A stretch of DNA of 37,276 nucleotides, from positions 1-37,276 of IMG/VR virus record IMGVR_UViG_3300031565_000157, one strand, 5' to 3'. The notes under the pieces were generated by a model. The model saw only the letters and a program-made list of their open reading frames with translations, was not told where the DNA came from and did not search any database. Made by a program: the position numbers and the translations under genes. Of the stretch, positions 15,887 through 37,276 are shown piece after piece. This DNA comes from a virus. Every line of letters begins with the position of its first letter. Position 1 is the stretch's first letter.

Positions 15887-16705
15887 ATGGCAGTTGCGAA
15901 AATAGGTTCATACGCTCCGGGTGATGAAAATTTAAACGATTTGATGACAAGCGCAAATTTGCAAGCGATCGGAAACGATAAAGTAACAGCTAACACATCA
16001 ACTGATGTTATGAATTCAGGTTCTGTTTTTGAATGCGGAGGTTCTTATTATCAGTTAACAAGCAATGTTTCAATATCAGGAAGTAAGACAAATCCGGTAC
16101 ATGTATATTTTAATCCTACAACGGAAGCGTTTTCTTATTCAACAACAGTTCCAACATATAATAATACATTGCAAGGTTATTACAGTTCAACTAATAAATG
16201 TTTACTTAGAGGTGACACAACAGGAGTGCATCAGCTTAAAAAACCTGAGACAATGACAATGACAACGGGAGCAGAAATAAACATGTCAACAGGTAGCGAA
16301 ATAAATCTTGCTACAGGTTCTGATATAAATATTGCAACAGGTGCTGATATAAATATAGCTACTGGTGGAGGTATCGAAGTTGCATCAGGTGGTGAAATAA
16401 ATATTGCATCAGGTGCTGAAATAAATATTGCATCAGGTGCTGATATAGTTGTTGACGGTGGAGAGATTTTAAATTCAGGCGCTATAACTACTGAATCCGG
16501 AGGATTTTTATCAGTTCTATCTGGTGGAAGTTTTACATGTGCTTCAGGTTCTTCAGCTTCTTTTAGTGGGACTTGTAAATTACCTTCAGGGACAAGCTCC
16601 CCTACACCAATAGGATCAGGAACTGCATATATTAACACATCCGATAATTATTTTTATTTCTATAATGGTTCGGCGTGGCGTAAAATAGCATCTTCGGCGG
16701 TTTAA
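15887..16705 (+). CDS. Tail fibre / spike with eight-residue beta repeats
   Basis: 272 aa. Residues 127-190 consist of eight near-perfect copies of the unit (T/S)G(A/S/G)(E/D)IN(I/L/M)A, followed by looser copies (GGEILNSG, ITTESGGFLSVLSGGS). Such eight-residue units suit a beta-solenoid or triple-stranded beta-helix shaft. The C-terminus (SDNYFYFYNGSAWRKI) is a typical tip of tail fibres and other virion spikes. It lies among distal tail genes and is a candidate receptor-binding or spike protein. Confidence 0.8.
   Translation: MAVAKIGSYAPGDENLNDLMTSANLQAIGNDKVTANTSTDVMNSGSVFECGGSYYQLTSNVSISGSKTNPVHVYFNPTTEAFSYSTTVPTYNNTLQGYYSSTNKCLLRGDTTGVHQLKKPETMTMTTGAEINMSTGSEINLATGSDINIATGADINIATGGGIEVASGGEINIASGAEINIASGADIVVDGGEILNSGAITTESGGFLSVLSGGSFTCASGSSASFSGTCKLPSGTSSPTPIGSGTAYINTSDNYFYFYNGSAWRKIASSAV
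16265..16456 (+). repeat. Eight tandem 24-bp in-frame repeats in the fibre gene
   Basis: Eight 24-base units encode TGAEINMS, TGSEINLA, TGSDINIA, TGADINIA, TGGGIEVA, SGGEINIA, SGAEINIA, SGADIVVD. Units six and seven are almost identical in DNA (shared core ATAAATATTGCATCAGGTGC). Such repeats can gain or lose units by slippage, so fibre length may differ between isolates. Confidence 0.92.
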
Positions 16706-31620: not shown

Positions 31621-31771
31621 AATTTGGCAAAGGGTAGTCGGATTTTATCGCCCATTAAGTGAAGCCAATAAAGGGAAACAATCAGAAATAAAAGATAGAA
31701 AATTATTTGATGTAAACATGAAAAACAAAGAATATGATAGATGGAATAAAAAAAAGCTTGACAAGTTTTAA
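31568..31771 (+). CDS. Stand-alone glycyl-radical domain resembling the NrdD C-terminus
   Basis: 67 aa, ATG 31568 with AAAGAGG five bases upstream. Residues 17-43 read CEIWQRVVGFYRP then LSEANKGKQSEIKDRK. The same pattern ends class III (anaerobic) ribonucleotide reductases: RVxGY with the radical glycine, followed by an N-x-GKQ-E-x-K-x-R run. The rest of NrdD is absent here. It may repair or activate a host NrdD, in the way GrcA/YfiD serves pyruvate formate-lyase, or be a remnant. The C-terminal codons (KKLDKF) contain the duplicated promoter at 31758. Confidence 0.72.
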   Translation: MQEKIIEKKKNLLQIPCEIWQRVVGFYRPLSEANKGKQSEIKDRKLFDVNMKNKEYDRWNKKKLDKF

Positions 31772-31785
31772 GGTTCGTATATATT
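31751..31785 (+). repeat. 35-bp repeat carrying a promoter, copy 1
   Basis: Identical to 33749-33783. In both places it codes the last residues (KLDKF, stop) of the gene before and contains TTGACA (31758-31763), 16 bases, TATATT (31780-31785). It is followed in both copies by a base change and then AGTT. Confidence 0.9.
31758..31785 (+). promoter_or_regulatory. Promoter in front of a cassette-like gene (copy 1)
   Basis: TTGACA, 16-base spacer, TATATT. It reads into the core-like GTTGTGT at 31788 and then the gene at 31812, the same arrangement as at 33756. Confidence 0.78.
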
Positions 31786-31787
31786 TA

Positions 31788-31794
31788 GTTGTGT
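31788..31794 (+). promoter_or_regulatory. Integron core-like site (copy 1)
   Basis: GTTGTGT, one base from the core GTTRRRY. Its position relative to the promoter is close to that of GTTAGAT at 33786 (overlapping AGTT). The inverse partner ACATAAC at 32025 pairs with it except for one wobble position. Confidence 0.5.
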
Positions 31795-31811
31795 GAAAGG
31801 CGGTTTAAAGT

Positions 31812-32012
31812 ATGAAAATTAGAAAAATTAAAACTAAAGAAAGGGCTAATGGTATGAAGTATTGCACCTTTTGCAAGCCTGCCAGAGTTGACGCTGTATA
31901 TAGAGATTTAAACATGAAGTTTGCGTGTGAAGAACATAAGCATTTATTAACAGAGGATAATGATGACGGATATATGTCAGATGGTGATTATCAATCATGG
32001 GGCAGGCTTTAG
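31812..32012 (+). CDS. Cysteine-containing protein in a cassette-like unit
   Basis: 66 aa, MKIRKIKTKERANGMKYCTFCKPARVD ... KFACEEHKHLL; CxxC and a later CxxH form a probable zinc site. It lies between core-like GTTGTGT (31788) and inverse core ACATAAC (32025), as a cassette gene does. GGCGG serves as ribosome site. The inverted repeat GGGCAG/CTGCCC (32000-32005, 32016-32021) spans its stop. Function unknown. Confidence 0.65.
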   Translation: MKIRKIKTKERANGMKYCTFCKPARVDAVYRDLNMKFACEEHKHLLTEDNDDGYMSDGDYQSWGRL

Positions 32013-32024
32013 GAACTGCCCATC

Positions 32025-32042
32025 ACATAACAAAGATTAGAT
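32025..32042 (+). other. Collapsed attC (stem region missing)
   Basis: ACATAAC followed by AAAG, then directly ATTAGATGAAATAGAGG. The first part equals the left end of the attC sites at 34252 and 34826 (TAACAAAGA), the second equals the start of cassettes 1, 2 and 4 (TTAGATGAAAT, AGAGGTT). The imperfect palindrome between them, some 60 nt in the complete sites, is absent. It looks like an attC reduced by deletion. Confidence 0.55.
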
Positions 32043-33164: not shown

Positions 33165-33242
33165 ATGATTTTTTTAATATGTTTAATAGTATTCATTATT
33201 TTGGCGCTTGTTATGTATTTTTTAATGGCATACTTTGACTGA
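33165..33242 (+). CDS. 25-aa single-pass membrane peptide
   Basis: Consensus GGAGG lies six to nine bases before ATG 33165. MIFLICLIVFIILALVMYFLMAYFD is one membrane helix. Its stop overlaps the next ATG. Such peptides may act as holin partners or small inhibitors. Confidence 0.6.
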   Translation: MIFLICLIVFIILALVMYFLMAYFD

Positions 33243-33604
33243 TGTATTTATACAAAGAAATTAAATTGACACCGTTCCCGATTACACTACATACTTATAT
33301 CGGCAAAGATGTTAAAATTTTTGAAGACATACAAAAAGACTTTGATTATAATTTATTATCTGGTTTTAATATGGAAATAACAAAGGGTATATGTTCATAC
33401 GATACAGATCTTAACGGTAATTATATAATATGGGTAATGTGCAAAAAATATTTATTGCATGAAATTGTACATTGCGTTGATGCTTTAATGCAGAATATTG
33501 AAGTTGAAAGCATGGAGTTTCGAGCTTATTATGTTGACTATTTATTTAATTATTTGAAAAACGATAAAATATATAAAAAAAATCATTGTAAACAAGGAGT
33601 TTAA
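33242..33604 (+). CDS. HExxH zincin-like protein
   Basis: 120 aa. YLLHEIVHCVDALMQ holds HEIVH (73-77), the zinc-binding site of metallopeptidases, and VESMEFRAYYVDYL gives a glutamate after a short linker as a possible third ligand. The compact size is that of minimal gluzincin-like phage proteins. Substrate unknown; host regulator cleavage (ImmA-like) or wall peptide are options. Confidence 0.75.
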   Translation: MYLYKEIKLTPFPITLHTYIGKDVKIFEDIQKDFDYNLLSGFNMEITKGICSYDTDLNGNYIIWVMCKKYLLHEIVHCVDALMQNIEVESMEFRAYYVDYLFNYLKNDKIYKKNHCKQGV

Positions 33605-33616
33605 AGTGAAAAATAA

Positions 33617-33769
33617 ATGTTAAAAGAATCTGGAATGGATGAAGTTTATTGCATGTGGTATTGCTGCCCTAAATGCGGTTATGACATGATAATGATATCG
33701 TTTAAATACTGTCCTAATTGCGGTGTTAAATTAAATGTTAAAAAAAATAAAAAGCTTGACAAGTTTTAA
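33617..33769 (+). CDS. 50-aa zinc-ribbon protein
   Basis: MLKESGMDEVYCMWYCCPKC... with CPKCGYD and CPNCGVK, a classic zinc ribbon. It ends KNKKLDKF, whose codons form the repeated promoter. The ribosome site AGGAG (33594) is distant; a five-codon GTG ORF at 33606 lies between, so coupling is possible. Confidence 0.65.
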   Translation: MLKESGMDEVYCMWYCCPKCGYDMIMISFKYCPNCGVKLNVKKNKKLDKF

Positions 33770-33783
33770 GGTTCGTATATATT
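33749..33783 (+). repeat. 35-bp repeat carrying a promoter, copy 2 (TTGACA / TATATT)
   Basis: Identical to 31751-31785. The promoter is TTGACA (33756-33761), 16 bases, TATATT (33778-33783). It reads straight into the cassette array, so it plays the part of an integron Pc promoter although no integrase is present. Confidence 0.9.
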
Positions 33784-33785
33784 CA

Positions 33786-33792
33786 GTTAGAT
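33786..33792 (+). promoter_or_regulatory. attI-like core site at the head of the cassette array
   Basis: GTTAGAT fits the core GTTRRRY exactly and follows the -10 box by two bases. It marks the left end of cassette 1; its complement ATCTAAC is at the start of attC1 (33980). Confidence 0.72.
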
Positions 33793-33808
33793 GAAATGGA
33801 GGCTAGAC

Positions 33809-33985
33809 ATGGTAAAATACAAAAAAGGCGACAGGGTTATTGTAGATAATGACAGGGTTGGAACTATTGTAAAATGTGAACAAGTCTACACGGCGGTCGT
33901 AGAGTTCGACCATGAGTATATAAGTTCTTCGCTTCGCTGTGTTGATAAGATGGAGGTTGAGCAAAACCGCCTCCACTTCATCTAA
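33809..33985 (+). CDS. Cassette 1 protein, SH3-like small barrel
   Basis: 58 aa from ATG 33809 with GGAGG upstream; an earlier in-frame ATG at 33791 overlaps the core site. MVKYKKGDRVIVDNDRVGTIVKCEQ ... AVVEFDHEY reads as a KOW/SH3-like barrel of five strands. The stop TAA lies in the inverse core of attC1. Function unknown; small barrel proteins often bind nucleic acid. Confidence 0.75.
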   Translation: MVKYKKGDRVIVDNDRVGTIVKCEQVYTAVVEFDHEYISSSLRCVDKMEVEQNRLHFI

Positions 33986-34059
33986 CAGCAATTAAACGGT
34001 TTCGCTCCGCTACATGCGAATCCACTTCGTGGACTTCGTTTAATTGCGGAACATTAGAT
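33980..34059 (+). repeat. attC site 1
   Basis: Inverse core ATCTAAC (33980-33986) and core ATTAGAT (34053-34059) frame an arm AGCAATTAAACG that pairs with CGTTTAATTGC, and a tip TCCAC-TTC-GTGGA. Size 80 bp. The core has A instead of the usual G at its first base, which may lower recombination. Confidence 0.82.
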
Positions 34060-34085
34060 GAAATAAAAATTAAAGAGTATTTACA

Positions 34086-34241
34086 ATGAGGACAGAATCC
34101 GAAATAAAAAAAGAAATTGCTGCTATGAAAAGAGATTTAGAGTTTATGGAAAAAAAGCCAATTCATAGTGAAGAGGCACGAGAGAACGCTATGTTTTGTC
34201 AGCGTCAAGTCATTAAAGTATTAGAATGGTGTGTAGAATAA
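34086..34241 (+). CDS. Cassette 2 protein, 51 aa
   Basis: ATG 34086, AAAGAG upstream. MRTESEIKKEIAAMKRDLEF ... EEARENAMFCQRQVIKVLEW is a helical coiled-coil hairpin. No known domain. It ends 10 bp before attC2. Confidence 0.72.
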   Translation: MRTESEIKKEIAAMKRDLEFMEKKPIHSEEARENAMFCQRQVIKVLEWCVE

Positions 34242-34251
34242 TTTTTACTTC

Positions 34252-34334
34252 ATCTAACAAAGAATATCTGGTTCAGCCTGTGGCTTCACCCAAACCGTGA
34301 GTACACGGCTTCAGATATTCTTGGAACGTTGTCG
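34252..34334 (+). repeat. attC site 2
   Basis: Inverse core ATCTAAC (34252-34258); arm AAGAATATCTG pairs with CAGATATTCTT; tip CCGTG-AGTA-CACGG; core GTTGTCG (34328-34334). Size 83 bp. The core departs from GTTRRRY, but its last six bases belong to cassette 3, whose own inverse core is CGACAAC, the exact complement. Confidence 0.85.
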
Positions 34335-34360
34335 GAAATAAGTTTTTAAAGGAGATAAAA

Positions 34361-34633
34361 ATGACAGAAGAAAGATGTAAACAAATTATGGAGCAACTTG
34401 GACAGCCTCATAGTAGGTCTTTAATGCAAGTAATTTTCCAAGTTGCAAACGAGACAGAGCAGGAAGTGAGAAAAAAACTTACATCCGACAACAGCGATTA
34501 TGAGGTTCAGCTAAAGGCTTCACCCAAATTGCCGAGTTTAGAAGATGTTATTGACGAAGTTTCAGACCATGTGCATCGAGAAACAATTAAGGAAACATAC
34601 TATGCAATACAACGACTCGGCAACTTCGCATAG
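34361..34633 (+). CDS. Cassette 3 protein, C-terminal half coded by the attC hairpin
   Basis: 90 aa, ATG 34361 after AAAGGAG. MTEERCKQIMEQLGQPHSRS ... TEQEVRKKLTSD is helical; from about residue 42 the frame passes through inverse core CGACAAC (34486) and on through the arm and loop of attC3, reading ...LPSLEDVIDEVSDHVHRETI..., to stop in the right arm (34631). Both halves look protein-like. Either the attC loop expanded by taking in coding DNA or the gene gained a mobile C-terminus. Confidence 0.72.
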   Translation: MTEERCKQIMEQLGQPHSRSLMQVIFQVANETEQEVRKKLTSDNSDYEVQLKASPKLPSLEDVIDEVSDHVHRETIKETYYAIQRLGNFA

Positions 34634-34648
34634 TAGCAAACGTTAAAT
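34486..34648 (+). repeat. attC site 3, very long, with a coding loop
   Basis: Inverse core CGACAAC (34486-34492), left part GGTTCAGC and GGCTTCACCCAAA as in attC2, then TTGCCGAGT (34529-34537), a 77-nt loop, ACTCGGCAA (34615-34623, perfect complement), CTTCGC as in attC4, and core GTTAAAT (34642-34648). Size 163 bp against 80-83 for the others. The lower arm pairs imperfectly (GCGATTATG with CATAGTAGC). Confidence 0.7.
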
Positions 34649-34664
34649 GAAATAGAGGTTAGAC

Positions 34665-34841
34665 ATGGAACCAGAAGAAAAGTTAGGTTTAAACAAAGCG
34701 TTAGATATTCTAAATAAAATTCAAAGGTTTGATTTATGTTGGCAACAGATGGATGAAACAAAAGACGGGGAGTTTGTTAGATATAGCGACATAAAGAGGT
34801 CTATTATAGAACTCCTCCAAACTTCATCTAACAAAGAATAA
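34665..34841 (+). CDS. Cassette 4 protein, 58 aa
   Basis: ATG 34665 with AGAGG upstream in the same head sequence as cassette 1. MEPEEKLGLNKALDILNKIQ ... WQQMDETKDGEF ... SIIELLQTSSNKE is mainly helical. Its last codons (TCA TCT AAC AAA GAA TAA) lie in attC4. Function unknown. Confidence 0.72.
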   Translation: MEPEEKLGLNKALDILNKIQRFDLCWQQMDETKDGEFVRYSDIKRSIIELLQTSSNKE

Positions 34842-34905
34842 GCGTTTCGCCTTCGGCTCTCCCAAATTGCCGTTGGCAACTTCGCTTATTCTCGGAACGT
34901 TATAC
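34826..34905 (+). repeat. attC site 4
   Basis: Inverse core ATCTAAC (34826-34832); arm AGAATAAGCG pairs with CGCTTATTCT; tip TTGCC-GTT-GGCAA; core GTTATAC (34899-34905). Size 80 bp. It shares CCCAAATTGCCG and GGCAACTTCGC with attC3. Confidence 0.85.
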
Positions 34906-34924: not shown

Positions 34925-35119
34925 ATGGAAAAAATAGACGTTAAATCTGTACAAATGAGTTTAGAAGAACACCTCTCAACTATGGTAGAAGGAATTGAAC
35001 CAGATTGGGGCTGTATTGGAGAGTTTGATGAAGAAAGTGGTTTTGAACCTGAGTGGGACGAAATAGAACATAATAGTTGGGAATGTCACTCTTGTAACAA
35101 TGGACCTTGTTATCAATAG
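34925..35119 (+). CDS. Cassette 5 protein, acidic, cysteine at the C-terminus
   Basis: 64 aa, ATG 34925, GAGAGGTG upstream. MEKIDVKSVQMSLEEHLSTM..., very acidic centre (FDEESGFEPEWDEIEHN) and an end CHSCNNGPCYQ. It is the last gene of the array; no complete attC follows. Confidence 0.7.
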   Translation: MEKIDVKSVQMSLEEHLSTMVEGIEPDWGCIGEFDEESGFEPEWDEIEHNSWECHSCNNGPCYQ

Positions 35120-35179: not shown

Positions 35180-35208
35180 TTGACAGAATTTTACAGAAAT
35201 GTTATGAT
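35180..35208 (+). promoter_or_regulatory. Promoter of the rightmost small-gene operon
   Basis: TTGACA (35180-35185), 17 bases, TATGAT (35203-35208). It lies right after the cassette region and reads into eight tightly packed small genes and then terminase. Confidence 0.85.
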
Positions 35209-36878: not shown

Positions 36879-37229
36879 ATGAATATTAGCGGTGTTATGC
36901 ATAATTTTACAGAAGAACAATTAAGAGAAGCTATAAAGAATACTGATTCAGTTATAAGCAATTTAGCTATAAATTTAGATTGTGACTGGCATACTGCACG
37001 CCGATATTTAGATAAATTTCCTGAAGTCAAGACGGAATTTGTCCGAGAATCCGAAAAAACAAGCGATAAAGCAAAAAGAAATATATCTAAAGCAATTGAT
37101 GAAGGTGATTTAAATCTTAGTAAATGGTATTTAGAAAAAAATATAAATACTAATAACGAATTTTCAGATAAGATACAGCTTGAACATTCAGGAGACATTA
37201 AAGTAAATATAAATATAAATGAAATATGA
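36879..37229 (+). CDS. terS: Terminase small subunit
   Basis: 116 aa. An N-terminal helix-turn-helix (EEQLREAIKNTDSVISNLAINLDCDWHTARRYLDKFPEV) recognises packaging sites; a helical middle (SDKAKRNISKAIDEGDLNLSKWYLEK) suits oligomer formation; the end IQLEHSGDIKVNININEI has the EHSGD motif seen at the C-terminus of many small terminases. It overlaps terL by ATGA. An in-frame ATG at 36897 is a possible alternative start. Confidence 0.9.
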   Translation: MNISGVMHNFTEEQLREAIKNTDSVISNLAINLDCDWHTARRYLDKFPEVKTEFVRESEKTSDKAKRNISKAIDEGDLNLSKWYLEKNINTNNEFSDKIQLEHSGDIKVNININEI

Positions 37230-37276
37230 AAGAAATCAATACTGATTTTGACATACCTACAAAATTCAAGCCTATT
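37151..37276. repeat. Terminal direct repeat, right copy
   Basis: Same 126 bases as 2-127. Joining the copies restores intact small and large terminase genes and a circle of about 37,149 bp. Confidence 0.95.
37226..37276 (+). CDS. terL: Terminase large subunit, first 17 codons (rest at 77-1276)
   Basis: The ATG and first codons of the packaging ATPase, cut by the window end and identical to the start of the gene at 77. Not a second gene. Confidence 0.93.
   Translation, partial: MKEINTDFDIPTKFKPI

Follow-up and report, generated by a model that had tools for sequence, protein, structure and literature searches.

Closest described systems

Clusters of attC sites without an integrase gene (CALINs) are already known from phages: Qi et al. 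2023 (PMC9892861) reported 17 of them, and five of the six phage attC sites that were tested recombined with IntI1. P12002L_attC2 is a phage site that works with IntI1 (PMC9892861). Like the phage genome that we describe here, the phages in that study carry small, attC-flanked cassettes and no intI. The original prediction for our sequence held that such arrays were undescribed in phages, and this claim fails because phage attC clusters without an integrase had been published (PMC9892861). Other parts of that reading (integron-type cassettes that vary between phages, a promoter in front of them, and no integrase) are supported, with the changes given below.

Two other systems are useful for comparison. 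In the chromosomal integrons of Treponema (Wu et al. 2013, PMC3607928), T. phagedenis has attC sites and small cassettes but no intI, as in our array; those integrons are chromosomal, whereas our array is borne by a phage. The chromosomal integrons of Pseudomonadota and the class 1 integrons share with our array the AAC/GTT cores, the R and L boxes, cassettes led by a promoter, and an AG|TT junction. Our array differs from them in that it has no intI, its spacers are unequal, and a covariance model of the chromosomal sites (R1, described below) does not match it.

The phage genome and its array

The window (the whole stretch of DNA that we analyzed, a 37,276-base virus record from IMG/VR) looks like the complete, circularly permuted genome of a tailed phage, because it has a 127-bp terminal repeat (positions 1-127 and 37150-37276, with 126 of 127 bases matching). 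Its proteins match phage families for terminase, portal, minor and major head proteins, tape measure, and DnaB-like helicase, and it also encodes an Erf-like annealing protein and an exonuclease from phage families. Its TerL is about 40-45% identical to those of phages of Nitratiruptor, Bdellovibrio, and others, and a search of IMG/VR with this TerL as the single query did not find a close relative. The suggestion that the host is a treponeme is unsupported. We also noticed a 65-bp direct repeat (86% identity; 16287-16447) within a gene that has repeated glycine-serine-rich motifs.

At positions 33786-34905, four attC-like hairpins (s1 to s4) separate four cassettes, all on the plus strand, whose site-bounded open reading frames encode 58, 51, 90, and 58 amino acids. 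Cassette 1 (33787-34053; ORF 33809-33985, 58 amino acids, no family) has ends that are complementary over 17 nt; the right core of its site, s1 (33980-34059), is ATT and not GTT. The ends of cassette 2 (34054-34328; ORF 34086-34241, 51 amino acids, no family; s2 at 34252-34334) and of cassette 3 (34329-34642; ORF 34361-34633, 90 amino acids) are each complementary over 19 nt. Site s3 (34486-34648) has a long loop, and its hairpin includes the 3' end of the ORF of cassette 3. The end complementarity of cassette 4 (34643-34899; ORF 34665-34841, 58 amino acids, no family) is weaker, and its site, s4 (34826-34905), is nearly identical to a site in another phage, G004 (90% over 99 bp). A repeat search also found complementary starts and ends within the cassettes (33774-33803 with 33969-33998, 34054-34072 with 34239-34257, and 34328-34347 with 34473-34492). 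Integron cassettes are expected to be arranged in this way, because the segment that follows G|TT is joined to the segment that precedes AAC once the cassette is a circle.

Five small cassette genes had been predicted. Four are separated by sites, but the fifth ORF (34925-35119, plus strand, 64 amino acids) lies after s4, has no attC of its own, and showed no end pairing. It is either the last cassette, with its attC lost, or phage flank. Two other features lie next to the array: a putative zinc metallopeptidase (33242-33604, with the motif HEIVH/HEIIH) adjoins it, and a strong promoter-like match (TTGACA-17-TATGAT, 35180-35208) lies just 3' of it.

The sites had also been predicted to have RYYYAAC and GTTRRRY ends. 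The AAC/GTT cores are indeed present in s2, s3, and s4, but the right ends of s1 (ATTAGAT), s2 (GTTGTCG), and s4 (GTTATAC) do not fit GTTRRRY, so these three sites do not have the strict pair of RYYYAAC and GTTRRRY boxes of attC. The sites do have other features of attC: the R and L boxes pair and are kept by compensatory change, and the cores are AAC/GTT except in s1. The two spacers that separate the R box from the L box are unequal (about 4 nt on the left and about 8 nt on the right). With four structurally supported sites within 1.1 kb and no intI, the array is a CALIN.

The hairpins are not due to chance, as indicated by covariation of the arms, by complementarity of each cassette's own ends past the R box, and by a step in GC content (35-41% in the cassettes versus 24-29% in the flanks). 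For the covariation, we aligned the window sites and five more that came from other phages. Among the cells in the arms, 83% are paired (versus 65% in shuffles) and 28 have changes on both sides (versus 12 in shuffles); if the partner is slid by one column, then pairing falls to 33-36%. In the L arm, 95.8% of cells are paired, both sides have changed at seven of the eight pairs, and no slid version comes close. The original observation, of hairpin sites that alternate with small genes behind a promoter, is confirmed.

The palindromes might instead be terminators, RNA structures, or transposon ends that resemble cassettes by accident; phages commonly carry small genes, and there is one weak terminator-like match inside a site. 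We consider this very improbable, given the AAC/GTT cores and the duplicated leaders with exact junctions (see below); also, terminator-like matches are not in excess (2 versus 1.0 expected), and an Rfam scan of the window found no family. We rejected terminators on account of the cores and the exact junctions. We rejected transposon TIRs because each cassette has complementary end sequences of its own.

Extended pairing between cassette ends

To describe the ends of the cassettes, we compared the start of each one with the reverse complement of its end, using 19 cassettes from five phages that were picked without reference to their ends. Agreement is about 0.8-1.0 at positions 1-8, 0/19 at position 10, and 0.74-0.95 at positions 11-17, and it fades beyond position 23 or so. 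In 65 ordinary chromosomal cassettes, the ends agree only to about position 11. Across positions 12-24, the phage cassettes have on average 7.9 matches of 13, versus 3.1 for the ordinary chromosomal cassettes (p = 4e-7) and 3.5 if ends are taken from different cassettes of the same phage (p = 5e-7). Overall, the complementarity spans about 17-24 nt in the array phages, as compared to about 11 nt in Pseudomonadota integrons.

The mismatch at position 10 has a consistent form: the start has A and the reverse complement of the end has G, which gives A.C on the top strand and, on the bottom strand, a G.T wobble. Of 46 end pairs, 40 have A/G or G/A at position 10, and several further mismatches in the ends are of the same kind. 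In the predicted fold of the circular form, the bottom strands of cassettes 1, 2, and 4 have a near-continuous outer stem that is separated by a bulge of 4 nt from an inner stem of about 11 bp. Folding energy favors the bottom strand only modestly (25 of 40, with a mean of 1 kcal/mol).

A scan for end pairs, run without the position-10 rule, found 43 in 377 kb from ten array phages, versus 1 in 302 kb of integron regions from Pseudomonadota (our chromosomal comparison); there was also 1 in phage loci that are related by TerL (790 kb). New arrays were predicted from the end signature, and a single scan with a DNA pattern gave several of these. Among 15 pattern hits, we took L144/L155 and L146/L148/L153 to be chance, and checking the end pairing of L147, L150, and L154 gave no confirmation. 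The same pattern had one match in 398 Pseudomonadota genomes, apparently by chance.

In the phage L061 (4883-6460), the mismatch at position 10 and the asymmetry of the spacers are both reversed, so the attC array seems to be oriented against its genes. Judging by the position-10 wobble, the attC sites of P12002L (L157, 39242-41000) are also oriented opposite to the genes. P12002L has the end signature at three places, which may or may not include the attC2 site that was tested with IntI1. Among the published phage CALINs (PMC9892861), P12002L has the same extended ends as our array phages, while TJE1 and MW202573 do not have this signature. As we read it, Qi et al. 2023 (PMC9892861) describes neither extended ends nor duplicated attI-like leaders. 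Similarly, in the open-access papers that we searched, we found no description of wobble-marked extended ends or of duplicated leaders.

Searches with covariance models

A covariance-model search had been proposed as the check on the four sites. We built a model (R1) from 13 attC sites of Pseudomonadota chromosomal integrons, which were collected beside TIGR02249 integrases. R1 recovers about 120 sites in the chromosomal integron regions that it was built from, but it had no match at any of the four window sites. It also had no match in the other phage arrays that we searched, and therefore R1 is insensitive to the phage variant of attC. The proposed check is negative with this model, but R1 misses other phage arrays as well.

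A second model (R2) was built from nine phage sites, including those of the window, so its matches in the window array are to training sites. In a held-out test on three phages, R2 found seven new sites, which lie next to known ones. It found none in chromosomal integron regions and none in G001, a relative with 48% identity in TerL. With filters off, nothing in the window beyond the trained sites scored above 15 bits. R2 had no match in the 398 Pseudomonadota genomes, in a search that used stricter filters and had no positive control.

An initial attC pattern that included the complete R boxes had two matches in viral contigs, both due to chance and inside a coding gene, and none in the genome collection; the only match to the VTS motif in the genome collection was a chance match in an Erythrobacter coding gene. 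We found no DNA similarity to the whole array among INPHARED phages or PLSDB plasmids, and site s4 alone as a DNA query gave only short chance matches. A simple stem score without stacking failed to separate attC from AT-rich background.

Duplicated leaders

The original prediction placed the cassettes behind one sigma-70 promoter. That promoter is present (TTGACA-16-TATATT at 33756-33783), but a second platform (31756-32031) had been overlooked. The window has exactly two copies of a 30-bp leader, GCTTGACAAGTTTTAAGGTTCGTATATATT (31756-31785 and 33754-33783), with none expected by chance. Both copies form a promoter that ends in YAG|TT, with a cassette directly after. Platform 1 (31756-31790, plus strand) has the promoter TTGACA-16-TATATT and an attI-like insertion point TAG|TT, with the G at 31788. 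It is followed by cassette 0 (31789-32031, plus strand; ORF 31812-32012), whose ends pair with A/G at position 10. The attC of cassette 0 has shrunk to AACAAAGA, after which the next cassette starts with TTAGATGAAATAGAGG. Platform 2 (33754-33788, plus strand) is the one in front of cassette 1; its attI-like insertion point is CAG|TT, with the G at 33786.

Two other phages also have duplicated leaders, and in both of them the copies diverge exactly at G|TT. In G004, the leader TGTCGTCTATCCACAAG|TT precedes both of its arrays, which are on opposite strands. In G410 (IMGVR_UViG_3300031707_002920), a platform of 319 bp is duplicated (99.7% identity), and the copies diverge at G|TT. All of the leader ends that we compared are AG|TT, while most attC ends are CG|TT. 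The attI1 site of class 1 integrons likewise ends in AAG|TT. Leader copies that diverge exactly at G|TT are the pattern expected of attI-type docking sites. Given the duplication of leaders in these three phages and their AG|TT junction, we infer that the leaders are putative attI-like docking sites. A search of other viral contigs for the 35-base window leader gave no match.

Exchange of cassettes between phages

We identified at least ten phages with such arrays, and most of them are unlike each other. The nearest relative by TerL is L061 (55% identity). Its array also lies upstream of the terminase genes, and its array genes, which include an ASCH protein, differ from those at the same spot in the window. 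This contradicts the idea of one block that stays unchanged in related phages. The relative G001 has no site. In four phages (G004, G005, L061, and the window), the array is upstream of the small terminase gene; in the array-free G001, a metallopeptidase-like gene (L004 2979-3296) directly abuts the small terminase gene.

Some sequences are common to different phages. In an all-against-all comparison with blastn, the sole match between the window and G004 was 99 bp around s4 (90% identity). G003 and G405 have 108 bp in common where two cassettes meet, and G005 and G406 share one cassette and part of its attC. A methyltransferase gene is common to G405, where it is in a cassette, and P12002L. 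A large array is in G410, an 86-kb phage with at least 13 cassettes at 40.9-50.0 kb; the ends of one of its cassettes are present once more at 20.7 kb. Because the cassettes of mostly unlike phages have this unusual folded-end signature in common and some stretches are the same in sequence, these comparisons suggest that phages keep and exchange their own pool of cassettes.

Part of the window array may have decayed, because the core of s1 is changed, the attC of platform 1 is lost, and cassette 3 carries a gene fragment. These signs of decay, and the absence of an integrase from the phages, would fit passive relics: blocks of a host's chromosomal integron that entered each phage through illegitimate or homologous recombination and have since been fixed and inert there. 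We consider this unlikely. Within a phage, the cassettes behind duplicated leaders differ, and their G|TT junctions are exact; the cassettes of the nearest relative differ as well; cassettes and attC sites are common to unlike phages; and the end pairing of 17-24 nt is maintained although the sequences differ.

Cargo of the cassettes

The proteins of the window array had no significant family in Pfam or PHROGs. Over residues 1-40, the protein from cassette 3, whose gene is truncated, has 62.5% identity to the product of a G005 gene that is not in a cassette, so some of the cargo is derived from phages. MT-A70, N6_N4, and Dam-type methyltransferases are among the cargo of other array phages, as are a Lar-like protein and zinc-ribbon proteins; the matches for Dam, Lar, and the zinc ribbons fall below the Pfam cut-offs. 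Methyltransferase cargo is also found in the published phage CALINs (PMC9892861).

How the cassettes could move

As had been predicted, the phage has no integrase gene: nothing in the window matches TIGR02249 or PF00589, so this is not a complete integron. Nor did we find a tyrosine recombinase (PF00589) in 15 phage records, most of which bear arrays and several of which are fragments, and for this reason it is plausible that IntI acts in trans on the phage cassettes. The genes that are common to the array phages do not include a shared recombinase. Indirect support for an integron integrase comes from P12002L, a phage that shows the end signature and has an attC that recombined with IntI1 (PMC9892861).

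We think it probable that the window phage carries two integron-like platforms without an integrase, whose cassettes are moved by an integrase from outside. An integron integrase would be supplied by the host or by a co-resident element. The circular cassette would fold as a long hairpin, with 17-24 nt of pairing that extends the R box, the G.T at position 10, a bulge, and the L-box stem. Cassettes would be excised and inserted via this folded, single-stranded attC. Insertion would take place at the attI-like point of the phage, and the cassettes would then be expressed from the phage promoter there. The cargo would be small phage-type genes and counter-restriction genes.

Another mover is conceivable, either annealing recombination by the phage or an unknown recombinase that reads the long paired ends. 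The window phage does encode an Erf-like annealing protein and an exonuclease, no record has an IntI, the outer stem is outside the known recognition features of attC, and the classical attC model does not score the sites. However, annealing requires homology, yet the junction sequences differ, and a recombinase of the phages' own is not among the genes that the array phages share. The AAC/GTT cores, the R and L boxes, and the G|TT junctions are the signature of an integron integrase. A mover of another kind therefore seems improbable to us, and we prefer an integron integrase that acts in trans.

Implications

Phage attC clusters without an integrase were already known; the docking sites and the extended ends look new. 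We would give even chances to a broader proposal, which is that diverse phages maintain integrase-less integrons, with duplicated attI/Pc docking sites that the phages encode, a shared pool of mobile cassettes, a distinct form of attC whose outer stem is extended and marked by a wobble, an integrase that acts in trans, and swapping of small counter-defence and accessory genes between phages. The end signature is simple enough that such arrays could be detected in bulk. It also raises a question about how attC folds, namely the role of the 17-24-nt outer stem and its conserved wobble in excision and integration. If the proposal is correct, then phages would be regular users of the integron system and not accidental carriers of it, with their own docking sites and promoters and a common pool of cassettes that includes DNA methyltransferases, a Lar-like restriction-alleviation protein, and an ASCH protein.
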